NCBI GenBank assembly: GCA_040757085.1 | Contig: JBFLXJ010000023.1 | Location: 320,575 to 384,574, forward strand | Reading direction: 5' to 3' | DNA length: 64,000 nt | From: Bacillota bacterium | Lineage (GTDB): Bacteria > Bacillota > Sulfobacillia > JACIYH01 | Shown: one piece after another, positions 34,093 to 46,289 of the stretch | Layout of the letters: the number at the start of each line of letters is the position of its first letter | Position numbering within the stretch: the stretch's first letter is position 1 | Notes under the pieces: model-generated | What the model was told of the DNA's origin: nothing | The model's database searches: none | What the model saw: the letters and a program-made list of their open reading frames with translations, nothing else | Program-made: the position numbers and the translations under genes

Positions 34093-34277
34093 GTGCCGGT
34101 AGAGGTTCTTCCGGCGGGTGGCTGCCAGCCCGGGCTTGACGTGGAGCCCGTGCACCGGGGCGGATCTGAGCGATAGCAGGGATTCTTGTCGCCTGCGGCG
34201 AATAAGCAGTGCATTATTATGTAAGCGCTGCCTGACAGTAGACGCTGGGACGGGTGCTTCGTGGGGAGGGGAGACCT

Positions 34278-35546
34278 GTGCGGGTGGGTATGCTTGGGTT
34301 GGGCACGGTGGGCCAGGCGGTGGTCCGGCTCCTCCACGAGGAAAGGGACCGCCTGCGCACGTCCGGCACCCCCCTGGAGCCGGTGCGGGCGCTGGTGCGG
34401 GATCCTTCTCGTCCCCGCCCCGTGCCCCCGGGACTGGAGTTGACCACCGACCCCGCCCGGGTCCTGGAGGATCCCGGGATCGACCTGGTGGTGGAACTCA
34501 TGGGAGGGGTGGAACCAGCCACCTCTTACATGTTGCGGGCCCTGAGGGCGGGGAAGCCGGTGGTCACTGCCAACAAGGAGGCCATAGCCCACCGGGGGAG
34601 AGAGCTGCTGGAGGCAGCGGCGGCAAGCCGGCTGCCGCTGAGGTTTGAGGCCAGCGTGGCCGGTGCCGTTCCCGTCATCCGCGCCCTCAAAGAATCCCTG
34701 GCCGGGGATCGCGTGGTTGAGGTGGCCGGCATCGTGAACGGTACTTCCAACTACGTGCTGGGGCTCATGGAGGAAGGTCTGGAACTGGAAGCAGCTGTGA
34801 GGATGGCAAGGGAGCGTGGCTACGCCGAGGCCGATCCCACCCGCGACCTGGACGGGTCGGACGCGGCCTGCAAGCTCGCTATCCTGGCTTCCATCGCCTT
34901 TTCGGCCCGGGTGCTTCCCGAGCAGGTGGGCACGCGGGGTATCCAGATGGTCAGCCGGGACGACCTGCGCTGGGGACGGGAAATGGGCTACCGTCTCAAA
35001 TTGCTGGCTTTGGCCCGGCACACGCCGGCGGGGATAGAGGCCCACGTACGACCCACTTTCCTGCCCGCATCCCATCCCCTGGCCGGGATCGCGGGGGTCA
35101 CCAATGCCCTCCTGGTGCGGGGGGAAAGGTGCGGCGAGCTGGTATTCCAGGGTCCGGGGGCGGGAGGTGACGCTACCGCCACGGCCGTGGTGAGCGACAT
35201 GCTGGAGATCGCTCGCCGGGCTGCGGCCGGGGTGAGGGACGGTTTCTACTGTACCTGCCGGGAGCAAGCTGCGGTCGTCCCCGCCCACCGGTGTGTGACG
35301 TCGGCGTACGTGCACCTCGAGGTGGTGGACCGGCCGGGCGTGCTGGCCCAGGTGGCCGGCTGCCTCGCCTCCCACGACGTGAGCATCGCCGAGGTCCTGC
35401 AGAAGGCGCGGGGAGAGGGCCCGGTGCCCGTCGTCTTCATCACGCATCCCTCTCCGCTGGGGGCTCTTGAGGAAGCGGTGAGGGAGATCGGGCGCCTGCC
35501 CGTCGTGTCGCGCGTGGCCAGCGTCATGGCGGTGCTGGGCAAATGA
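34278..35546 (+). CDS. hom: Homoserine dehydrogenase with C-terminal ACT domain
   Basis: A 422-residue enzyme reducing aspartate semialdehyde to homoserine. N-terminal NAD(P) motif GMLGLGTVGQAV, then LMGGVEPA, TANKEAIAHRG and the catalytic region SVAGAVPVIRALKESLAGD and NGTSNYVL. A C-terminal ACT domain (VVDRPGVLAQVAG) suggests threonine feedback. GTG 34278 follows GGGGAGGGGAG. It heads a hom-thrC-thrB-lysC-lysE run covering synthesis of threonine and perhaps its export. The asd gene is not present. Confidence 0.94.
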   Translation: MRVGMLGLGTVGQAVVRLLHEERDRLRTSGTPLEPVRALVRDPSRPRPVPPGLELTTDPARVLEDPGIDLVVELMGGVEPATSYMLRALRAGKPVVTANKEAIAHRGRELLEAAAASRLPLRFEASVAGAVPVIRALKESLAGDRVVEVAGIVNGTSNYVLGLMEEGLELEAAVRMARERGYAEADPTRDLDGSDAACKLAILASIAFSARVLPEQVGTRGIQMVSRDDLRWGREMGYRLKLLALARHTPAGIEAHVRPTFLPASHPLAGIAGVTNALLVRGERCGELVFQGPGAGGDATATAVVSDMLEIARRAAAGVRDGFYCTCREQAAVVPAHRCVTSAYVHLEVVDRPGVLAQVAGCLASHDVSIAEVLQKARGEGPVPVVFITHPSPLGALEEAVREIGRLPVVSRVASVMAVLGK

Positions 35547-35588
35547 CGAGGTCGTCCGGATTACGGTGCAGCGCTGGCTGATCGAGAA

Positions 35589-36689
35589 GTGGTGGGCATT
35601 GTGACCAGGTCGTGGGGATTGATCAGACGCTATCGTGAGTTCCTACCCGTGGGGCCTTCCACCCCCATCATCACTCTGGGGGAAGGGGATACTCCTCTCA
35701 TCCCGTCGCGGGATCTGGGCCCCTGCTGGGGCATCGAGCTGTACTTCAAGTACGAGGGGGCCAACCCCACCGGGTCGTTCAAGGACCGGGGTATGACGGT
35801 GGCCGTGAGCCTGGCGGCCGAGAAGGGCGCGCGGGCGGTAATCTGCGCCTCCACCGGGAACACGGCGGCTTCGGCAGCCGCCTACGCCGCCCGCGCCGGC
35901 CTGGTCTGCCTGGTGGTGCTTCCCCGGGGAGCGGTGGCCCGGGGGAAGCTGGCCCAGGCCCGCGCCCACGGGGCTCGCGTCCTCGAGATCGAGGGCGATT
36001 TCGACGCTGCCCTGGCCGCGGTGCGGGAGCTGGCCACCACCCTTCCCATCACCCTGGTGAACTCGGTGAATCCCCACCGGATCGAGGGCCAGAAGACCGG
36101 GGCGTTTGAGATCTGCGATGCCCTGGGGGACAGCCCCGCCTACCTGGCCATCCCGGTGGGGAACGCCGGCAACATCACCGCCTACTGGAGGGGATTCCGC
36201 CAGTACCGGGAGGCAGGGCGATGCACCACCCTGCCCCGGATGCTGGGGTTCCAGGCAGCAGGTGCCGCCCCTCTTGTGGAAGGCCGTCCCATCCCCCATC
36301 CGCGCACGGTGGCCACCGCCATCCGCATCGGGAATCCCGCCAGCTGGCAGGGGGCGGTCACCGCGCTCACCGAGTCCGGCGGGCGGGTGGAGAAGGTCGA
36401 GGACGAGGAGATCATGGCGGCCTACCGGATGCTGGCCTCTCGGGAGGGCATCTTTGCGGAGCCGGCCTCCTGCGCGGCAGTGGCGGGGGTGGCTAAACTG
36501 GCTGCCCGGGGATTCTTCTCCCCGGGCGACCGGGTGGTGTGCGTCCTCACCGGCCACGGGCTCAAGGATCCCGACGCCGCCATGGCCCAGGATTCCCAGA
36601 CCCCGGCATCCGCGGGCGGGAGGGCCGGAGCTCTGGAAGATGCTATCCGGGCCGCCCTGGCGGAAGCACGCGCGGGACGGGGGGATTGA
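35589..36689 (+). CDS. thrC: Threonine synthase
   Basis: A 366-residue PLP enzyme converting O-phosphohomoserine to threonine. The PLP Lys lies in PTGSFKDRGM (near residue 62); the phosphate loop is GNAGNI and the N-terminal TLGEGDTPLI is typical. Starts GTG 35589 or GTG 35601 are both possible and neither has a strong ribosome site. The Gln/Pro/Arg-rich tail after residue 330 is probably disordered. Confidence 0.93.
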   Translation: MVGIVTRSWGLIRRYREFLPVGPSTPIITLGEGDTPLIPSRDLGPCWGIELYFKYEGANPTGSFKDRGMTVAVSLAAEKGARAVICASTGNTAASAAAYAARAGLVCLVVLPRGAVARGKLAQARAHGARVLEIEGDFDAALAAVRELATTLPITLVNSVNPHRIEGQKTGAFEICDALGDSPAYLAIPVGNAGNITAYWRGFRQYREAGRCTTLPRMLGFQAAGAAPLVEGRPIPHPRTVATAIRIGNPASWQGAVTALTESGGRVEKVEDEEIMAAYRMLASREGIFAEPASCAAVAGVAKLAARGFFSPGDRVVCVLTGHGLKDPDAAMAQDSQTPASAGGRAGALEDAIRAALAEARAGRGD

Positions 36690-36694
36690 CGGGA

Positions 36695-37603
36695 GTGGCT
36701 GTCACAGTGCGGGTTTCCGTGCCGGCCAGCGTGGCCAACCTGGGCCCCGGGTTCGACGCCCTGGGCCTGGCCCTCGACGTATTCAACGTCCTGGAGGTTG
36801 AGCCGGGGGGCGACGGCGTGCGGGTCGAGGTCATCGGGGAGGGAAGGAACCTGGCCCCGGCCGACAACCTGGTCTTGCGGGCCATGGAGTACGCCTTTTC
36901 CGCCGCGGGCTCGACCCTTCCTGCCATGCGGCTGCGCCTGATCAACCGCATCCCGGTGGGGTGCGGGATGGGTTCCTCGGCAGCGGCCATAGTGGCCGGT
37001 CTGGTGGCAGCCAGCGCCGTGCTGGATGACCCCTGGTCGCCCGAACAGTTGCTGGACATGGCCGCGGACCTGGAGGGCCACCCGGACAACGTTGCCCCCG
37101 CCATGTGGGGAGGTCTGGTAGTGAGTTGCCGGACGGGAGAGGCCACCCGCTGGGTGCGCCTGGAGGCGCCCTCGGAACTGCAGGCCGTGCTGGTGATCCC
37201 GGAGCTGGATCTGCCCACCCGACAGGCGCGTCAGGTGCTGCCTGAGTCCGTCCCGTTTGCCGACGCCGTGTTCAACGTGGGCCGGGCGGCCCTGCTCGTG
37301 GCTGCCCTTTCCAGCCGGCGGTACGACCTGCTGCGCGAGGCCATGCGGGACCGATTGCACCAGCCGTACCGCTCGCGTTTGATCCCCGGGATGGAGGAGG
37401 GGCTGCAGGCGGCCGAGCGGGCGGGAGCCCTGGGTGCGGCCCTGAGCGGAGCAGGCCCCACCCTGGTGGCGTTTGCCGTGGGCGATTGTCGTCCCGTGGC
37501 GGAGGCCGTACAGATGGCGCTGGGCCGGCACGGGGTGCCCAGCAGATGGATCGTGGCCCGCCCCACCGACTGGGGTGCCCTGGCCACCGTCCACCGCCGA
37601 TGA
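36695..37603 (+). CDS. thrB: Homoserine kinase (GHMP family)
   Basis: A 302-residue GHMP kinase. It has PASVANLGPGFDALGLAL at the N-terminus, the ATP-binding loop PVGCGMGSSAAA near residue 90, GHPDNVAPA, and the C-terminal GAALSGAGPTL loop. It phosphorylates homoserine for ThrC. Several starts crowd here: TTG 36686 overlaps the thrC stop, GTG 36695 and GTG 36707 follow; I chose GTG 36695. Confidence 0.94.
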   Translation: MAVTVRVSVPASVANLGPGFDALGLALDVFNVLEVEPGGDGVRVEVIGEGRNLAPADNLVLRAMEYAFSAAGSTLPAMRLRLINRIPVGCGMGSSAAAIVAGLVAASAVLDDPWSPEQLLDMAADLEGHPDNVAPAMWGGLVVSCRTGEATRWVRLEAPSELQAVLVIPELDLPTRQARQVLPESVPFADAVFNVGRAALLVAALSSRRYDLLREAMRDRLHQPYRSRLIPGMEEGLQAAERAGALGAALSGAGPTLVAFAVGDCRPVAEAVQMALGRHGVPSRWIVARPTDWGALATVHRR

Positions 37604-37628
37604 CGCCGGGGACAGGGGGGATTTGGGA

Positions 37629-38846
37629 TTGGCGCTGGTGGTGCACAAGTACGGAGGTACATCGGTAGCAGACATTTCTCGCATCCGTCACGTGGCGTCG
37701 CGCCTGATCCGGGCCAGGGAACAGGGCCACGATGTGGTGGCAGTGGTTTCCGCCATGGGTGACGCCACTGACGAACTCCTCGAGATGGCGCGACAACTGA
37801 CCGAGCGTCCTACCCGGCGGGAACTAGACATGTTGCTTGCCACGGGGGAGCAGGTGTCCAGCGCGCTCGTGGCCCTGGCGGTGAACTCCCTGGGATACCC
37901 GGCAGTGGCACTGACGGGTGCCCAGGGAGGCATCATCACCGACGGCGGCTTCACCCGGGCCCGCATCCTGCGGGTGGATCCCAGCCGCATCCGGGAAGAA
38001 CTGGCCCGGGGCAAGATCGTGGTGGTGGCCGGGTTCCAGGGCATCGGCCCTGGCAACGACATCACCACCCTGGGCCGGGGAGGTTCCGATGCCACCGCGG
38101 TGGCGCTGGCGGCCGCCCTGGGCGCTCCGGTTTGCGACATCTGCACCGACGTGGACGGGATCTACACCGCCGACCCCCGGGTGGTCCGCAACGCCCGCAA
38201 GCTGGCGGTCATCTCCTACGAGGAGATGATGGAGCTGGCCTACGTGGGGGCCCGGGTGCTGCAGGCCCGGGCGGTAGAGATAGCAAGCCAGCACCGGGTG
38301 GTGATTCACCTGCGGTCGAGCTTCTCGGATGAGGACGGTACCCTGGTCAAGGAGGTCCCCGCAATGGAAAACGCCAAGCCGGTGGTGGGGGTGGTACACG
38401 ACCCCGACGTGGCCCGCGTGACGGTGCTGTCTGTCCCGGACCGCCCGGGCGTGGCTCACCGTATCTTCAGCGCCCTGGCCGAGGCGGGCATCAACGTGGA
38501 CATGATCGTACAGAGCACCCGGCACGAGGAATACACCGATGTGCTGTTCACCGTGAGCCGGGCGGACCTGCCCCAGGCCATGGAGATCGTGCAGGGGGTA
38601 GCACGGGAACTGGGAGCCACGGGGTGCGTCTACGACGCCGGCGTGGGAAAGGTGTCGATAGTGGGTGCGGGCATGGCCACCCACCCCGGAGTGGCGGCCC
38701 GCATGTTCGGGGCACTGGCCCGCAACGGGATCAACATCCAGGTGATATCTACTTCCGAGATCAGGATCTCCTGCCTGATCGACGCCGCCGACCTGGAACG
38801 GGCGGTCACGGCCCTCCACGACGAATTCGAACTCGGCCTCCCGTAG
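37629..38846 (+). CDS. lysC: Aspartate kinase with tandem ACT domains
   Basis: A 405-residue aspartokinase, first enzyme of the aspartate family pathway. It has HKYGGTSVAD at the start, GRGGSDATAVALAAAL, TDVDGIYTADPR in the kinase domain, and two C-terminal ACT domains (VLSVPDRPGVAHRIF and GAGMATHPGVAARMF, with ISTSEIRIS) for lysine/threonine feedback. TTG 37629 has AGGGGGG ten bases upstream; TTG 37623 is two codons earlier. It lies 25 bases after thrB. Confidence 0.94.
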   Translation: MALVVHKYGGTSVADISRIRHVASRLIRAREQGHDVVAVVSAMGDATDELLEMARQLTERPTRRELDMLLATGEQVSSALVALAVNSLGYPAVALTGAQGGIITDGGFTRARILRVDPSRIREELARGKIVVVAGFQGIGPGNDITTLGRGGSDATAVALAAALGAPVCDICTDVDGIYTADPRVVRNARKLAVISYEEMMELAYVGARVLQARAVEIASQHRVVIHLRSSFSDEDGTLVKEVPAMENAKPVVGVVHDPDVARVTVLSVPDRPGVAHRIFSALAEAGINVDMIVQSTRHEEYTDVLFTVSRADLPQAMEIVQGVARELGATGCVYDAGVGKVSIVGAGMATHPGVAARMFGALARNGINIQVISTSEIRISCLIDAADLERAVTALHDEFELGLP

Positions 38847-38906
38847 CCGTTTCCCGGGACCGGCGACTGCGGCGCCCGCCTGCGGCGTTCGTCCCGGGGT
38901 CGGGGG

Positions 38907-39620
38907 GTGGACAGTTTGGGCTTCTTCGCCATCATGGTGAGTTCGTTCCTGGTGGGGTTGTCGGGGGCTCTCATGCCCGGGCCGCTCACCACCCTTACCA
39001 TCGAGCGGGCCAGCCGCCTGGGCGCGGGGGCGGGGATGGCGGTGGCCGTGGGGCATAGCCTGCTGGAATTGGTGACGGTGATAGCCCTGGCCCTGGGACT
39101 GGGCAGCGTGCTGGGGCAGCCTTCCGTGGCCGGCGCGGTGGGGTTGGTAGGCGGTCTGGTGCTGGCCTGGATGGGGTGGACCACCATCAGGAGCGCCCCC
39201 GCCGTCGCGTCCGCGCCCGCCCGGGACCCCACAACAGGCGCTGCGTTGTCGCCGGTCCGGCCCGCTGCGCCCGCGCCTTCGGGCGGGGGGCCGGGGAAGG
39301 TGCTTCTTCCGCTGCGGGCCCTGCTGGGAGGGATAGTGGTGAGCCTGGCTAACCCCTACTGGTCCCTGTGGTGGGCCACTATCGGCACCACGTACCTGGG
39401 ACTCTGGGGCGGGACCAGACTTACCAACCTGGCTGCCTTTTACCTGGGCCACGTATCCTCGGATATCCTGTGGTTGGGCTTACTGTCGGTAGGGGTGGCG
39501 CGGGGCGTCCGCTACCTGTCCGGCAAGGTATACCGGGGGATCCTGGTGGGACTGGGAGCCTTCCTGATCGCCCTGGCCGCTTTCTGCCTGTGCTCAGCCC
39601 TCAAGCTGTTGATGCGGTGA
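38907..39620 (+). CDS. LysE/RhtB-family amino acid exporter
   Basis: A 237-residue protein with about six transmembrane helices. The N-terminal family signature LSGALMPGPLTTLTI is clear, and NPYWSLWWATIG marks the second half. A Pro/Ala/Ser-rich loop (about 93-130) separates the halves. LysE-type exporters release lysine, arginine, threonine or homoserine. Location at the end of the threonine operon suggests overflow export of threonine, homoserine or lysine. Convergent with the large flavoprotein gene, only 17 bases away. Confidence 0.85.
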   Translation: MDSLGFFAIMVSSFLVGLSGALMPGPLTTLTIERASRLGAGAGMAVAVGHSLLELVTVIALALGLGSVLGQPSVAGAVGLVGGLVLAWMGWTTIRSAPAVASAPARDPTTGAALSPVRPAAPAPSGGGPGKVLLPLRALLGGIVVSLANPYWSLWWATIGTTYLGLWGGTRLTNLAAFYLGHVSSDILWLGLLSVGVARGVRYLSGKVYRGILVGLGAFLIALAAFCLCSALKLLMR

Positions 39621-39637: not shown

Positions 39638-42600
39638 TCAAGTGAGACGCAGGGCGGCAGGAGCGGGATGGGTCTGGGCCGGCGTATCGGTAAAGAGGTC
39701 GGTGAGCATGGCCGCCAGCTGGTCCTTGCGGTAGCCGGGCAGGGTGATGGCCGCAGCGGGGCACTCGGCGGCACAGGTTCCGCATCCGCGGCACTGGACG
39801 GGATTGATCTGGGCCACGTTGCGCTCGTTGATGAACGGCACCCGGTAGGGGCATACGCGCACGCAGGTCAGGCAGGCGGCGCACTTTTCCTCGCTGACGG
39901 TCGCCACGATACCGCCGGCCTGCAGTTCCTCCTTCGCCAGCAGGCAGGCGGCCCGCGCTGCCGCCCCCTGGGCCTGGAATATGGTTTCGGAAACGGACTT
40001 GGGGGCGTGACCCGAGCCACAGCAGTAGATGCCGTGGGAGGGGAGGTCCATGGGGCTCATCTTGGGGTGCAGTTCCAGGAAGAAGCCGTGTTCGTCCAGG
40101 GGGACCTTGAGCAGGGAAGCCAGTTGGGCGACGCCGTCGGCGGGTACGGCGGCGGTGGAGAGGATGACCAGGTCGGGATTGACCAGGATCCTGCGGCCAC
40201 TCTGCACGTCGGTGGCTGTCAGCATCAGTTGGCCGGAGGACGTTACTCCCAGCCGGGGTGGCTCTTCCGCCCGGTAACGCAGGAATGCCACTCCCCGGCG
40301 GCGGGCCTCCCGGTAGTACGCTTCGCGGATGCCGTACGTGCGCATGTCGCGGTACAGCACCAGCACCTGGACGTCGGGGTTGAGTTCTTTGACGCGCAGG
40401 GCGTTCTTCACCGCCTGAGAGCAGCAGGTGCGGCTGCAGTATTGCCGCCCGGTGGTGCGGGAGCCCACGCAACTGATAAAAGCCACCATGCTTACGCCGG
40501 TCACTTGCTCGGGCCGGAAGGTCAGCGTTTCCTCGAACTCCAGACGGGTGAGGATCCGGGGATCCTCGCCGTACAGGTACTCGGTGGGCCCGTATTCCTG
40601 CGCCCCGGTGGCCAGGATGAGGGCCCCGTGCTCCAGTTGCCTGATCCGGCCGTCCCGCAGGCGGATCGCGGTGCGGTAGTGACCGGCGTGGCCGGAGAAC
40701 TCCACCACCTGGCTACCCGTGAACACCTCTATCAGAGGATTTTCCATTACGCGGCGGCGCAGGTCGCCGAGCAGGGGCGCCACCGGTCCCGTTTCCAGGG
40801 TCGAGTGCAGCCGCCTGAGCATGCCACCCAGTTCGTCCTGCCGCTCCACCAGGTAGGTGGAGAATCCCTGCTCGGCCAGGGATAGGGCGGCCTGCATTCC
40901 CGCCAGGCCTCCTCCGATCACCAGGGCCCGCGGGACCACCGGCACGGTGAATAGAGTGAGGGGCTCAGCCCGGGCCACCTTGGCCACCGCCATGCGCACC
41001 AGGTCCTGGGCCTTGGCCGTGGCCGCTGCGGGGTTATCCCGGTGAACCCAGGAACATTGCTCGCGGATGTTGGCCATCTCGAACAGGAAGGGATTTAGCC
41101 CTGCCTCCCGCAGCGTTTCCTGGAAGAGGGAGCGGTGCGTGCGGATGGTGCAGGACGCCACCACCACCCGGGTCAACCCCTTCTCGGCGATGAGTTCCCG
41201 GATGCGGGCCAGGTGCGATTGGGAGCACGCGTACAGGACAGCCTCGGCGTGCACCACGCCCGGCAGGAATGCGGCGGTGCGGGCCACCTCCTCCACATCG
41301 ACCACCGAAGCGATGTTGGTGCCGCAGTGACACACGAAGACCCCCACCCGGGGCGGTTGCCCCTCCACCGGGAGGGGAGGCGGGTACTCTTTCTTTTTGA
41401 CCATCTTGCCGCGGGCATCCCGGAGCAGCGCGCCGGCTGCAGCGCCTGCGGCGCTGGCCATCATCACCGACTCGGGGATGTCGCGGGGAGCGGTGAAACC
41501 ACCCACGGCAAACACTCCCTCCCTGCTGGTCTTCACGGGAGCCAGGGGATCGGTGGCGGCAAAGCCGTACTCATCGAGGGCGATGCCGGCGGCCCGGGCC
41601 AGTGCCTCCGCCCCGGTGGGGGGCGCGGCGGCGGTGGCCAGCACCACCAGGTCGAATTCCTCCTGGTGGATTCTGCCCTCCAGCCAGTACCTGATCACCA
41701 GGTTGCCGGTGGCAGGATCCTCTTTCACGGTGGATATCATGGTGGGCAGGTAGCGCACGCCCCTCTGCTCCGCCGCCAGCACGTACTTCTCGAAACCCTT
41801 CCCCACTGCCCGCAGGTCCCCGTAAAACACCGTAATTTCCGTTTGGGGATGGTGGTCCCTGATCATGAGGGCCTGCTTGGTGGCGTACATGCAGCACACC
41901 GACGAGCAGTAGGGGGCGTGACCATCGTCCCGCGAGCCGGCGCACTGGATGAAGGCCACCCGCCGCGGCACCTTCCCGTCGGAGGGCCGCTCCAGGTGGC
42001 CGCCCGTGGGACCGGTGGCGGAGAGCAAGCGCTCCAGCTCCTGGCCGGTCACCACGTTGCGGTAGACGCCGTGGCCGTACGCGGGCACGGTGGCGGCATC
42101 GATGAGGTCGAATCCGGGTGCCAGCACCACCGCCCCAACTTCCAGTTCCAGGGTGGCGGGGGCGTCGTCGTGACGGATGGCATTCTTCTGGCACGCCGAT
42201 TCGCACTGCAGGCATTCCGAGCAGATCCCGCAGTCCAGGCAGCGGGATGCCTCCCTGCGCGCCTCTTCTTCGCTGTACGGGAGGACCACTTCCGCGAATC
42301 CCCTCACCCGGGCGGCAGGTTCCAGCTTGCGCGGGCGCACGCGGCGTTGCCTCGCCACGGTGGAGGTGTCAAGTTCCAGGGGCGGGATCTGTTCTGGAAG
42401 GGGAGGGGCACTCCGCCCGGCCCGCAGGTCCATCCCCTGCAGGAAGCGGTGGATGGACTCGGCTGCCTCCCTGCCGGCGGCCATGGCCCCAATCACGGTG
42501 GCGGGACCGGTAACGGCGTCACCCCCTGCGAACACGCCGGGGAGGTTGGTGGCGAGGGTGAGGGGGTCCACCACCAGGGTCCCCAGGGGGGTGCGGGTGA

Positions 42601-44158
42601 GGCCGGAGTCGGCCAGGAACACCTGGTCCGGTGCCTGGCTGACGGCGATGATCACCGTCTGGCAGGGAACCTCGAATTCCGACCCGGGGATGGCTACCGG
42701 CCGGCGCCTCCCGCGGGCATCCGTGCTTTCCAGGCGGTTGCGGATGAGCCGCAGGCCGGTTGCTCCCTCCTCCCCGCCGCGGTGGCCATCTTCGGGGGCG
42801 CGGGTCCGGCCGTCGCCCAGGACGGCCACCGGACTGGCCAGGAACACGAAGCGTACCCCTTCCTCGCGGGCTTCCTCCACCTCTTCGGGAAGGGCGGTCA
42901 TCTCCTCCGGGGAACGACGGTAGTAGACGGTGACCTCCTCGGCCCCCAGGCGCAGGGCGGTACGGGCGGCGTCGATGGCCGTGTTGCCGCCGCCGATGAC
43001 CGCTACCTGCTTCCCCACCCGCAGGGGCTGGCCCAGGTTGGCCAGGCGCAGGAAGGTGACGCCGTGGTACACCCCGGCCAGGTTTTCCCCCGGCAGGCCG
43101 ATGAACTGGGGCTCGTGGGCCCCGATGCCCAGGAACACGGCCCGGAATCCCATGTCGAAGAGTTTCAGGAGGGGCAGGTCGGGCCCTACCGCTACCCCGG
43201 AGTGGAATTCCACCCCCATGCGGCGGATGAGGTCGATTTCGGCATCCAGCAGGTCCTTGGGGAGCCGGTAAGGAGGAATCCCCACCCGGAGCATGCCGCC
43301 CAGGACGGGCAGCGCCTCGTACACCGTGACCTGGTAGCCCCGGCGGGCCAGGTGGTACGCACACGCCATCCCCGCCGGGCCCGATCCCACCACCGCCACC
43401 TTCTCCGGGCGCGGGGGCTCCATGTCCTCCCGGATGATGCGCTCGAGGTCTTCCACCTGACGCAAGACGTACTCGCCCACGAAGCGCTTGAGGCGGGACT
43501 TAGCTACGGGTTCATCCACGCTGCCGCGCTGGCACACCGTCTCGCAGGGGTGGTGGCACACCGTCCCGCAGATGATGGGGAAGGGCACGGCCCGACGGAT
43601 CAGCCGCCACGCCTCCAGGTACTTGCCCTGGCGCACCAGGGCCACGTAGCCGTGGGGGTTGACCCCCGAGGGGCAGGCCTGCTGGCAGGGAGATTTGCCG
43701 CGCTTGTCGATCAAGAATTTGTTAGGCACCGCCTGGGGGAAGGGCCGGTGGATGGCTTTCCGGCGGCTCAGCCCCAGGTTGAACTCGTCGGGAACCTCCA
43801 CCGGGCAGACCGCCGCGCAGTCGCCGCAGCCGGTGCACTCCTTCTCATCCACATAGCGGGGGTGTCGGCGCAGGAGCGCCCGGAAGTGACCGGGTTTTCC
43901 CTCCAGGGCTTCCAGGGTGGTGAGGGTGTGGATCTGGATGTTGGGATGGCTCTGACACTCTGTCATGCGGGGGCCCAGCAGGCACATGGCGCAGTCATTG
44001 GTGGGGAAGGTCTTGTCCAGCTGGGCCATGCGACCGCCCAGGCTGGCTCCCGACGTGACCAGGTGAACAAAATAGCCGCCCTCGGCCAGATCCAGGGCGG
44101 CCTGCATGCCGGCGATCCCGCCGCCGGCCACCAGCACGGAGCCCACCGGTTCCGTCAT
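39638..44158 (-). CDS. Giant HdrA-GltD-like-HdrA fusion flavoprotein with several Fe-S clusters
   Basis: A 1506-residue protein, about twice usual HdrA size. Order: HdrA-type FAD motif GGGIAGMQAALDLAEGG (12-28) and a ferredoxin-like CTGCGDCAAVCP (108-119); an inserted GltD/NfnB-like module (about 156-640) with PSGVNPHGY, VVGSGPAGMACAYHLARRG (256 on), GGGNTAIDAARTALRLGAEE; then CLDCGICSECLQCESACQKN, the HdrA hallmark YCSSVCCMYATKQA and VCHCGTNIASVV; then a second HdrA-like unit with GGGLAGMQAALSLAEQG, CSRTCCSQAVKNA and two terminal ferredoxin motifs CAACLTCVRVCP and CRGCGTCAAECP. Three FAD sites and one NAD(P)H site suggest a flavin-based electron-bifurcating or -confurcating hub. No hdrBC, mvh or fdh gene is adjacent. 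ATG 44158 has GGGGGAG six bases upstream; ATG 44164 lacks spacing. Confidence 0.88.
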   Translation of the reverse strand: MTEPVGSVLVAGGGIAGMQAALDLAEGGYFVHLVTSGASLGGRMAQLDKTFPTNDCAMCLLGPRMTECQSHPNIQIHTLTTLEALEGKPGHFRALLRRHPRYVDEKECTGCGDCAAVCPVEVPDEFNLGLSRRKAIHRPFPQAVPNKFLIDKRGKSPCQQACPSGVNPHGYVALVRQGKYLEAWRLIRRAVPFPIICGTVCHHPCETVCQRGSVDEPVAKSRLKRFVGEYVLRQVEDLERIIREDMEPPRPEKVAVVGSGPAGMACAYHLARRGYQVTVYEALPVLGGMLRVGIPPYRLPKDLLDAEIDLIRRMGVEFHSGVAVGPDLPLLKLFDMGFRAVFLGIGAHEPQFIGLPGENLAGVYHGVTFLRLANLGQPLRVGKQVAVIGGGNTAIDAARTALRLGAEEVTVYYRRSPEEMTALPEEVEEAREEGVRFVFLASPVAVLGDGRTRAPEDGHRGGEEGATGLRLIRNRLESTDARGRRRPVAIPGSEFEVPCQTVIIAVSQAPDQVFLADSGLTRTPLGTLVVDPLTLATNLPGVFAGGDAVTGPATVIGAMAAGREAAESIHRFLQGMDLRAGRSAPPLPEQIPPLELDTSTVARQRRVRPRKLEPAARVRGFAEVVLPYSEEEARREASRCLDCGICSECLQCESACQKNAIRHDDAPATLELEVGAVVLAPGFDLIDAATVPAYGHGVYRNVVTGQELERLLSATGPTGGHLERPSDGKVPRRVAFIQCAGSRDDGHAPYCSSVCCMYATKQALMIRDHHPQTEITVFYGDLRAVGKGFEKYVLAAEQRGVRYLPTMISTVKEDPATGNLVIRYWLEGRIHQEEFDLVVLATAAAPPTGAEALARAAGIALDEYGFAATDPLAPVKTSREGVFAVGGFTAPRDIPESVMMASAAGAAAGALLRDARGKMVKKKEYPPPLPVEGQPPRVGVFVCHCGTNIASVVDVEEVARTAAFLPGVVHAEAVLYACSQSHLARIRELIAEKGLTRVVVASCTIRTHRSLFQETLREAGLNPFLFEMANIREQCSWVHRDNPAAATAKAQDLVRMAVAKVARAEPLTLFTVPVVPRALVIGGGLAGMQAALSLAEQGFSTYLVERQDELGGMLRRLHSTLETGPVAPLLGDLRRRVMENPLIEVFTGSQVVEFSGHAGHYRTAIRLRDGRIRQLEHGALILATGAQEYGPTEYLYGEDPRILTRLEFEETLTFRPEQVTGVSMVAFISCVGSRTTGRQYCSRTCCSQAVKNALRVKELNPDVQVLVLYRDMRTYGIREAYYREARRRGVAFLRYRAEEPPRLGVTSSGQLMLTATDVQSGRRILVNPDLVILSTAAVPADGVAQLASLLKVPLDEHGFFLELHPKMSPMDLPSHGIYCCGSGHAPKSVSETIFQAQGAAARAACLLAKEELQAGGIVATVSEEKCAACLTCVRVCPYRVPFINERNVAQINPVQCRGCGTCAAECPAAAITLPGYRKDQLAAMLTDLFTDTPAQTHPAPAALRLT

Positions 44159-44204
44159 GAACATCTCCCCCTGGAATGTGTGCTGTTACTCATACACCAC
44201 TGCC

Positions 44205-44234
44205 ATTATATCGGCAATCCCAAATATTACGCAA
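44205..44234 (-). promoter_or_regulatory. Putative promoter of the Hdr fusion gene
   Basis: On the minus strand, TTGCGT (44234-44229) and TATAAT (44210-44205) are 18 bases apart, about 45 bases before the start codon, within an unusually AT-rich stretch (44200-44245). Confidence 0.55.
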
Positions 44235-44378
44235 ATTAGTCCATGGGAGGACGATTACACAGTTTTTGCTGCCCAAGTACCGGGTGCAGCAAATCACAAG
44301 CCGGGCCGCATCCCTTTGCGCCCGGGTACGAGGGGCGGCGCCGGGTGCGCGTGGACACGGGAGCAATCGCAGTCCTGC

Positions 44379-44392
44379 CGCATAATTATGCG
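44379..44392. promoter_or_regulatory. Perfect 14-base palindrome between divergent genes
   Basis: CGCATAATTATGCG is its own reverse complement. It lies about 90 bases before the phosphatase-like gene at 44484 in the 325-base divergent gap 44159-44483. Its AT core in GC-rich surroundings suits a regulator site. Apart from this dyad and the promoter-like AT-rich stretch near 44205-44245 I see nothing else in the gap. Confidence 0.4.
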
Positions 44393-44483
44393 ACAGCGCG
44401 CACCGGACCGGGCAGGCGGCGCGCCACGTGATCACCAGGCGGAGGAACCGGGGCAGGCGTGGCGAACCTGTCGGGAGGGGGGG

Positions 44484-46289
44484 ATGGAGATGAGCGAGAG
44501 GCGAGCCGGGCGTAGTTGGCGCTGGTTGGTGCTTCTGGTCGTGCCGTTACTCTTGCTGCTGGTGTCGGCGGGGGCGGCGCTGGTGGCGCTGAGTCTGCAG
44601 GGAGATCTGGACACATACACCCCCGTGGATACCGGTCCCCTGGCGGCCGGGGAGAAGAGTGCACGCCTGGCCCAGAGAGTAGTGGTGGTGGTCGTGGATG
44701 GCCTGCGCGTTGACGTCTCCCGGCAGATGCCGTTCCTGGAGTCGCTGCGGGGGCGGGGGGCGTGGACTTCCCTCACCACCGGGCAGCCTTCCTTCTCCAA
44801 GCCCAGCTATGCTGTTCTCTCCACGGGTACGTGGCAGGAATACCACGGGGTGGCCATGAACAGCCACCCTGGTGCGGTCAAGGTGGACACCATCTTCTCG
44901 GTCGCCCGGAATGCGGGCCTGAGGACGGCCCTGTACGGGTACACCTACTGGGGTGAGATCAACCCCTCGGTGGACCATTCCTTGGTGGGGGATTACCCGG
45001 ACCATGAGCTGTACGCCCGCGCCCGGGCTTCCCTGGAGGCGCGGGAGGCTGATCTGACATATGTGCATCTGAGCGCAGTGGACGAGGCCGGGCACGAGTC
45101 CGGCGGTGCCCTGTCCGAGGAGTACCTGGAAGCTGCCCGGGAGGTAGATGGCATGATCGCCGGTCTTGCGTCCTGCCTGGACCTGGCGAAAGACGTGCTG
45201 GTCGTGACGGCAGACCACGGGCAGCTGGACCGTAACAACCGGGGCGGCAGCGGCCACGGGGGCTGGGAGCGCGAGGTGACCACGGTGCCCCTGGTGATGG
45301 TGGGCGCGGGCGTGAAGCCGGGGGAGATTCCCGCTGGCCGGCAGGTGGATGTGGTTCCCACGGTGGCCACCCTGCTGGGGTTGCCGGTGCCCGCCCATTC
45401 CCTGGGGAATGTACTGTGGGCGGGGCTGGATGTCCCCGAGGACGTGCGTGCCGACAAGCAGGTCAAGCGGGCAGCCCAGTTCGTTGACTTCGCCCGTGCC
45501 TACGTCACTGCGGTATCTGCCCCGTCAGGTGAGGCATCTGGGTCGCAGCAGGCTGCTGCCCTGGCCAGTGATCCGCTGGCCGGGGCCACCGCATCCCTCG
45601 AGGAGGCGCGTAGCCGCCTTGCCGAATCCGCGTATGAGCAGGCATTTACCCTGGCAGGGGATAGCATGGAGAAAGCCGAGAGGGCAATGGGCGCAGCCCG
45701 GTCACGAATGGTGTGGGCTCACCGGTGGCCACGGCTCCCCTTCTTGCTCGTCCCCCTGGTGGTACTGGGGTTGCTGGCCTGGAAGGCGCGGCGGTCGCTC
45801 CTGGAAGTCCTGGCCTGGGGTGCCGGCTACCTGGTCCTCTATCACGTGTTCTACGCCTGGGTGTTCGGCGACGTGTATTCCCTGAGCGTGTTCCCGGACG
45901 GGTCGTTGCCCACCATGTTCCGCCTCTTCGGCTTCCCCGCTTATCTGGCGCTCGCCATCATCCTGACGGCCGTGCTGTGGCGTGGCACGGCCACGGCCCG
46001 GGCGGCCGAGGGGATCACCGGGCGCCAGCACGTGGTGTGGCTGGTCGAGAAGGCCATTCTCGCTCCCTACGTGGTCCTGGGAATAGTGGCAGCCGTGGGC
46101 CTGTTCGGTATCGGCTCGAGCCTGGGTTTCTATCTGCCCTCGTTCCGCCTGAACTTCCTGTACTTCTGCGCCCTGCTGCAGCTCCTCTGGCTGGGCCCGA
46201 TAGCGGTGGTAGCTCCCTTGGCCGCCTGGCTGGCGACACGGCAGCGCTACCGGGCCACCGACATGGCAGATCAGGCCGCAGTCAGATGA
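44484..46289 (+). CDS. Alkaline-phosphatase-fold membrane phosphodiesterase/transferase
   Basis: A 601-residue protein: an N-terminal transmembrane helix (about 15-37), an extracytoplasmic alkaline-phosphatase-superfamily domain with VVVVVDGLRVDV, likely nucleophile in GQPSFSKPSYAVLSTGT (Ser or Thr), SAVDEAGHESGG, TADHGQLDRNN and a late GSGHGGWE metal-ligand stretch, then about five C-terminal transmembrane helices from residue 410. The fold covers type I phosphodiesterases and lipid or polymer phosphotransferases; the substrate is unknown. ATG 44484 or ATG 44490 may be the start, after GGGAGGGGGGG. Its 3' end overlaps the convergent gene by eight bases. Confidence 0.8.
   Translation: MEMSERRAGRSWRWLVLLVVPLLLLLVSAGAALVALSLQGDLDTYTPVDTGPLAAGEKSARLAQRVVVVVVDGLRVDVSRQMPFLESLRGRGAWTSLTTGQPSFSKPSYAVLSTGTWQEYHGVAMNSHPGAVKVDTIFSVARNAGLRTALYGYTYWGEINPSVDHSLVGDYPDHELYARARASLEAREADLTYVHLSAVDEAGHESGGALSEEYLEAAREVDGMIAGLASCLDLAKDVLVVTADHGQLDRNNRGGSGHGGWEREVTTVPLVMVGAGVKPGEIPAGRQVDVVPTVATLLGLPVPAHSLGNVLWAGLDVPEDVRADKQVKRAAQFVDFARAYVTAVSAPSGEASGSQQAAALASDPLAGATASLEEARSRLAESAYEQAFTLAGDSMEKAERAMGAARSRMVWAHRWPRLPFLLVPLVVLGLLAWKARRSLLEVLAWGAGYLVLYHVFYAWVFGDVYSLSVFPDGSLPTMFRLFGFPAYLALAIILTAVLWRGTATARAAEGITGRQHVVWLVEKAILAPYVVLGIVAAVGLFGIGSSLGFYLPSFRLNFLYFCALLQLLWLGPIAVVAPLAAWLATRQRYRATDMADQAAVR

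Follow-up and report, generated by a model that had tools for sequence, protein, structure and literature searches.

Can a protein built of two HdrA units and a GltD module serve without the redox partners that are usually encoded beside it? This question is raised by P0001, a protein of 162.7 kDa encoded in a window of 64,000 nucleotides (the whole stretch of DNA analysed) from a Bacillota bacterium. The initial annotation of the window, made by reading the letters, had described it as a possible single-chain electron-bifurcating or transhydrogenase-like enzyme whose partner was unknown. As a whole, that interpretation was partly supported by our analysis. The features on which the following argument is based are collected in table 1.

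Table 1. Features of the P0001 locus, with positions in the window and residues (res) of P0001.
Feature	Positions	Strand	Basis
Standalone HdrA-GltD-HdrA gene (P0001), 1506 aa	39638..44158	minus	ORF, family models, PDB matches
HdrA unit 1, TrxR-like FAD domain, first half (res 5-98), C56/C59 in TNDCAMC	43865..44146	minus	
HdrA inserted ferredoxin, first half (res 100-153; C108, C111, C114, C118)	43700..43861	minus	
Inserted GltD/NfnB module (res 154-580): two Fe-S sites, FAD, NAD(P)H	42419..43699	minus	Pfam/NCBIfam; NfnI 5jca_L, Z 40
YRR motif (res 413-415), NADP(H) phosphate site of NfnB/DsrL-2	42914..42922	minus	PMC7596348
Split ferredoxin, second half (res 635-668, CLDCGICSECLQCESAC)	42155..42256	minus	
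HdrA unit 1, second half (res 669-915): E709, K761, C739/C751/C755/C756	41414..42154	minus	
HdrA unit 2, N-terminal cluster domain (res 934-1070; C943, C945, C978, C1003)	40949..41359	minus	
HdrA unit 2, TrxR-like FAD domain without inserted ferredoxin (res 1071-1415; E1209, K1251)	39914..40948	minus	
C-terminal 2x[4Fe-4S] ferredoxin domain (res 1416-1490)	39689..39913	minus	
Ribosome-binding site GGGGGAG	44165..44171	minus	6-nt spacing to ATG 44158, sequence read directly
Candidate -10 box TATAAT in A+T-rich gap upstream of P0001	44205..44210	minus	Sequence read directly
Homoserine dehydrogenase, threonine synthase, homoserine kinase, aspartate kinase, LysE-type exporter; convergent, outside the system	34254..39620	plus	
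Type I phosphodiesterase/metalloenzyme family protein, divergent, outside the system; ORF start overextended upstream	44106..46289	plus	

The stop codon of P0001 ends at position 39638. The in-frame ATG 44164 was rejected as its start in favour of ATG 44158 because the ribosome-binding site overlaps the former; the same site precedes ATG 44158 by 6 nt, and the product length given in table 1 is therefore taken as correct. By codon statistics, no other ORF in the window came near the coding score of P0001, which is supporting evidence only, as the codon table was partly trained on P0001 itself. A consensus promoter scan upstream of the gene gave zero sites above threshold. A weak -35 element (TTGCGT) was found 18 nt upstream of the candidate -10 box, which suggests that P0001 may have a promoter of its own.

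The surroundings of the gene offered no redox partner. No hdrB, hdrC or mvhD was found within about 9.6 kb on either side of P0001, no metV or metF within 5 kb, no hydrogenase gene near it, and no gene for an NfnA-like or StnAB-like NAD(H) partner adjacent to it. The nearest HdrB-like sequence on the contig lies more than 120 kb outside the window, and the absence of HdrBC and hydrogenase genes nearby, which had been noted before, thus holds. A functional tie to the adjoining threonine genes was considered and rejected because the standalone copies of other families have different neighbours (RsgA, LeuRS, DinB, a methyltransferase, and a histidine kinase). The window also contains a threonine breakdown pair, that is, a Kbl/BioF-like acyltransferase and a threonine-dehydrogenase-like Zn enzyme, beyond P0001 (46282-49120, minus strand) and opposite the threonine biosynthesis operon.

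The domain order of P0001, an HdrA unit split by an NfnB/GltD module and followed by a second HdrA unit, was borne out by family models, by sequence matches to PDB chains, and by AlphaFold models, as the initial annotation had proposed. HdrA chains (5odc/8rvu) matched residues 39-153 and 641-866 in unit 1 and residues 934-1112 and 1357-1492 in unit 2, and NfnB/GltD chains matched residues 156-575. The models were of good quality for residues 1-1200 (pLDDT 88.1, pTM 0.81) and 901-1506 (pLDDT 88.7, pTM 0.83). In structural comparisons, residues 3-915 matched HdrA when the GltD insert was skipped (Z 50), residues 154-575 matched the NADP(H)-bound NfnI (5jca_L), and residues 151-654, that is, the GltD module with the ferredoxin that follows it, matched the NfnABC large subunit (Z 50). 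Unit 2 matched a complete HdrA minus the inserted ferredoxin only (Z 42).

The two HdrA units are complementary. In unit 1, the N-terminal cluster domain of HdrA is missing, and the GltD module interrupts the inserted ferredoxin, with Cys108-118 before the module and Cys640-656 after it. Unit 2 has this N-terminal domain and, at its C-terminus, the 2x[4Fe-4S] domain, and lacks both the inserted ferredoxin and the C56/C59 cysteine pair of unit 1. The same complementarity occurs in the fused HdrA of ANME archaea, where it was read as an intramolecular heterodimer (PMC9012536). Three FAD sites (GxGxxG at residues 12, 258, and 1082) and about 8-9 [4Fe-4S] sites are present in the chain, in agreement with the three flavins and several clusters that had been annotated. 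Two ferredoxin motifs had been placed in the second unit; both are found at the C-terminus, but the split ferredoxin around the GltD module had been missed. Nearly all candidate ligand cysteines are kept in 94-100% of 95 homologues, and C197 varies. The residue pair for bifurcation in methanogen HdrA, E356/K409, maps to E709/K761 in unit 1 and to E1209/K1251 in unit 2. The former pair is invariant in all 108 aligned homologues; the latter positions are E in 64 and K in 86 of the 108, and P0001 has both. These residue signatures are consistent with the bifurcation potential assumed earlier for P0001. As a separate observation, the second Cys of TNDCAMC (C59) is replaced by selenocysteine at an in-frame TGA (TNDCAM-U) in many homologues from Desulfobacterota (L022, L023, L028, L031, and about 30 other loci), and one further homologue (L086) has an in-frame TGA at CHUG in the N-terminal domain of unit 2.

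We found at least 580 relatives of P0001 in the genome scan, dozens of them full-length, in Bacillota, Chloroflexota, Desulfobacterota, Atribacterota, Planctomycetota, and other phyla. The sequence of P0001 is nested within the tree of the Moorella-type HdrA-GltD-HdrA family. The HdrA of Moorella thermoacetica (162.8 kDa) is a subunit of MetVF-HdrCBA-MvhD, a type IV methylene-THF reductase, and oxidizes NADH with benzyl viologen at 190 U/mg (PMC9430772). It has the same domain order as P0001, the same mass, three FAD, and E and K in both HdrA flavin domains (PMC9430772); in contrast to P0001, which stands alone and has an NADP-type YRR motif, it is encoded with hdrCB, mvhD, and metVF and oxidizes NADH. 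The Moorella complex did not reduce ferredoxin (PMC13040438). Since the activity of the Moorella protein is known, an objection that the initial annotation had raised against its own proposal, a known activity of an equal-length homologue, applies here.

Other described systems share parts of this architecture. HdrL of Desulfobacterium autotrophicum HRM2, a heterodisulfide reductase/glutamate synthase fusion, is likewise an HdrA-GltD fusion with a predicted NAD(P)H site (PMC2702500); however, each hdrL gene is followed by mvhD, and that of HdrL1 also by dsrABC, while P0001 has no mvhD, and two of the three HdrL contain selenocysteine, while P0001 has no TGA codon. Type III HdrA (A9, A9-TRX-C, and A10, from ANME-1 and Bathyarchaeota), described from nine archaeal sequences only, carries GltD inside the inserted-ferredoxin region, and this position was proposed to reroute the inserted ferredoxin to NAD(P)H (PMC12054007). 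In P0001, too, GltD lies inside the inserted ferredoxin, the split halves of which flank residues 154-634. Type III HdrA differs in its reported NAD-type GXGXXG motif (PMC12054007), the corresponding motifs of P0001 being GGGNTA (389-394) and YRR. NfnB, the large subunit of NfnAB, and StnC resemble P0001 in the GltD/NADPH module with two [4Fe-4S] clusters and FAD (structural Z 39-50), and NfnB also in the YRR motif, but they have no HdrA fusion and need NfnA or StnAB. DsrL has an NfnB-like NAD(P)H module in which the YRR motif decides NADP(H) use (PMC7596348), but it has no HdrA units and its partner is DsrAB. One family of the same class as P0001 has a split form of the fusion, in which HdrA-GltD and the second HdrA are encoded by two adjoining genes that are directly preceded by an MvhD match (L186:4649-9060 and L187:1888-6299).

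To describe the gene neighbourhoods, sequences were collected by class-level and phylum-level searches and their flanking DNA was recovered; counts were restricted to homologues flanked by 2.5 kb or more on each side, and a partner was scored when it lay within 5 kb. On a tree built without the nucleotide-motif columns, P0001 falls in a clade that comprises 11 sequences of four families (support of 100/99 by bootstrap/SH-aLRT). A single change between operon and standalone states is required on that tree, and the clade was recovered again when 15 more operon sequences were added (SH-aLRT 100). None of the nine scorable clade members has MvhD, HdrB, HdrC, MetV, or MetF within 5 kb, while among the 59 other homologues MvhD was found in 56, HdrB in 20, HdrC in 37, MetV in 39, and MetF in 36. 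In a further sample of Bacillota, mvhD, metV, metF, and hdrC accompanied all 18 homologues, and hdrB 17 of them. Two congeneric genomes contain orthologues 88% identical to P0001 in the same lone position, and some genomes have two standalone copies and one operon copy (L177, L179, and L188 in G148). No redox neighbour common to the lone copies of different families in the clade was found.

These counts bear on several earlier claims. The same fusion was to be sought in other genomes, and intact homologues do occur in many phyla, most of them beside mvhD. The partner had been called unknown, which was wrong for the architecture, as its usual partners are MvhD, usually HdrCB, and often MetVF. 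Constant pairing of homologues with HdrBC had been named as evidence against a self-contained enzyme, and the standalone clade departs from such pairing. The HdrA-GltD-HdrA architecture is already published and is not new, while the standalone, NADP-type clade appears to be a new variant of it; no description of a standalone HdrA of the P0001 type was found in the open literature searched. Two candidates were set aside. The substitution R199T proved not to mark the clade: in the larger set, L158 and operon copies from two other families carry it too. Two Delongbacteria homologues without mvhD (L017:6817-12443 and L025:6741-12449) were not accepted as standalone in the same sense, for directly upstream of them is a 373-aa gene that looks FrhB/FdhB-like by eye and may encode a different partner.

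The genome of P0001 also encodes, at another locus, an operon-form HdrA-GltD-HdrA paralogue that is 57% identical to P0001. The order of this locus is CdhD-like corrinoid protein, pterin-binding methyltransferase, DUF3786, CooC-like ATPase, RACo, hdrC, hdrB, hdrA-gltD-hdrA, mvhD, metV, and metF; acetyl-CoA synthase is near the operon, and formyl-THF synthetase is on the same contig. A family-by-family search of the genome found five MvhD/HdrB sets, each of them with its own HdrA, and thus no spare partner set. An NfnAB-like pair is encoded at yet another locus (L090). Elsewhere in the family, one genome has two near-identical hdrCBA-mvhD-metVF operons (L229 and L230, G405:C1).

The nucleotide site distinguishes the two paralogues. 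DsrL-2, strictly NADP(H)-dependent by kinetics, and NfnB, by structure, have YRR at the 2'-phosphate site, whereas DsrL-1, without YRR, uses NAD(H) (PMC7596348). P0001 has Y413-R414-R415, and the operon paralogue has CLE at these positions. Based on the motif precedent in DsrL and NfnB, we predict NADP(H) as the substrate of the standalone protein and NAD(H) as that of the operon paralogue. YRR is kept in 9 of the 11 clade members and was lost in L179 and L180; across the family, YRR was found in 72 of 108 sequences and Glu at the third position in 34. Within the HdrA-GltD-HdrA family, several switches have occurred between the NADP-type YRR and NAD-type CLE/VE states (at least four changes on a 33-row tree), and the state could serve to predict the electron donor of each operon.

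Selection on P0001 was purifying, with dN/dS of 0.15-0.18 between congeneric orthologues. Among 728 positions conserved by residue group, the standalone clade shows 14 specific losses and its sister operon clade 8. We looked for decay of the partner-docking domains in the standalone clade and found none: of the conserved positions, the N-terminal cluster domain had lost 2 out of 90 and the C-terminal ferredoxin domain none out of 24, and the mean identity of the latter between subgroups was 70% in the standalone clade versus 69% in the sister clade. The purifying selection and the retained positions together argue for a functional P0001. Because no domain decay was seen, conservation does not separate standalone function from assembly with partners encoded in trans.

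Considering these results, we hypothesize that P0001 is a partner-less, NADP(H)-linked standalone paralogue of the Moorella-type HdrA which kept its cofactor sites and is linked to ferredoxin, and we put the probability of this at about one half. P0001 would have left the operon, with MvhD, HdrCB, and MetVF lost as genetic partners. In the electron path that we infer, hydride from NADPH would pass to the FAD of the GltD module at the YRR site, and single electrons would reach the FAD of unit 1 by way of the pair of [4Fe-4S] clusters in GltD and the neighbouring split ferredoxin. Units 1 and 2 may form an intramolecular pseudo-dimer, in which electrons could also move among the FAD of unit 1, the N-terminal cluster and FAD of unit 2, and the C-terminal 2x[4Fe-4S] domain. 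This last domain is a likely dock for a soluble one-electron carrier, most plausibly ferredoxin, with which P0001 probably exchanges electrons. Because E and K occur at both HdrA flavins, P0001 could bifurcate or confurcate between NADPH, ferredoxin, and one further partner; StnC sets a precedent for a GltD module through which NADPH feeds a bifurcating flavin located elsewhere (PMC10482914). Against this hypothesis stand the loss of YRR in the two clade members mentioned above and the Moorella complex without ferredoxin reduction (PMC13040438). Moreover, conserved positions kept almost without exception would be equally expected if HdrC- or MvhD-type partners were still in use. A stricter form of the idea, that the clade consists of single-gene, self-sufficient bifurcating enzymes working with NADP(H), ferredoxin, and a third redox partner without HdrBC, MvhD, or hydrogenase, is put forward only tentatively, with odds of well under one half. 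If it were true, P0001 would to our knowledge be the first HdrA enzyme of its type shown to work without HdrBC and MvhD.

The main and serious rival, to which we give a probability clearly below that of our preferred reading, is assembly in trans: P0001 would replace or alternate with another HdrA and recruit HdrBC and/or MvhD, even MetVF, from other loci, giving an NADPH-driven version of the complex. The genome does encode five HdrB/MvhD loci and the complex of the paralogue, and the domains that would contact partners retain their conserved positions, with the few losses given above. All five partner sets, however, already have their own HdrA; the whole operon was lost across the clade with no spare set remaining, which makes shared subunits less economical; and partner co-localization was seen in no scorable clade member. 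A further reading makes P0001 a single-chain functional analogue of Nfn/Stn, in which NADP(H) bound by GltD would exchange electrons with NAD(H) and ferredoxin; it draws on the match of residues 151-654 to the NfnABC and Stn large subunits (Z 46-50). We regard it as unlikely, because family models recognized no additional pyridine-nucleotide site, whether NfnA-like or NuoF-like, in the chain and an NfnAB-like pair already exists in the genome.

It might also be supposed that P0001 is a relic, an ordinary NADH-linked HdrA subunit whose operon was recently broken and which has no role of its own, given its origin in an operon family and the presence of an operon paralogue. This is very improbable and largely refuted by the purifying selection (dN/dS about 0.15); the 11-sequence clade spread over several families, the full set of cofactor ligands, and YRR in place of CLE also speak against it. 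The least credible explanation is a misassembly or frame artefact that fused two genes, an idea that could appeal to the class members with each half encoded by its own gene, next to the other (L186, L187). It is refuted by a single frame in dozens of independent genomes and in three congeneric ones and by the known Moorella protein of the same mass. The initial annotation had named misassembly as a danger to its reading; the number of relatives, the 88%-identical congeneric orthologues, and their dN/dS dispel it.

Which second acceptor serves the Moorella-type HdrA complex is a question that concerns the energy conservation of acetogens (PMC9430772; PMC13040438). A form that occurs in nature without partners, and for which we predict the use of NADPH, makes it easier to examine the HdrA-GltD-HdrA core alone, in which the nucleotide used, the reduction of ferredoxin, and bifurcation at one or both HdrA flavins could be addressed. 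The YRR standalone and CLE operon paralogues in one genome provide a built-in comparison. A further GltD fusion was observed on contig C30 of the same genome (L113:4393-11441), where a NuoF-GltD protein of 1012 aa adjoins a group A6 FeFe hydrogenase and a second NuoF; it is apparently a bifurcating hydrogenase with an extra GltD module.
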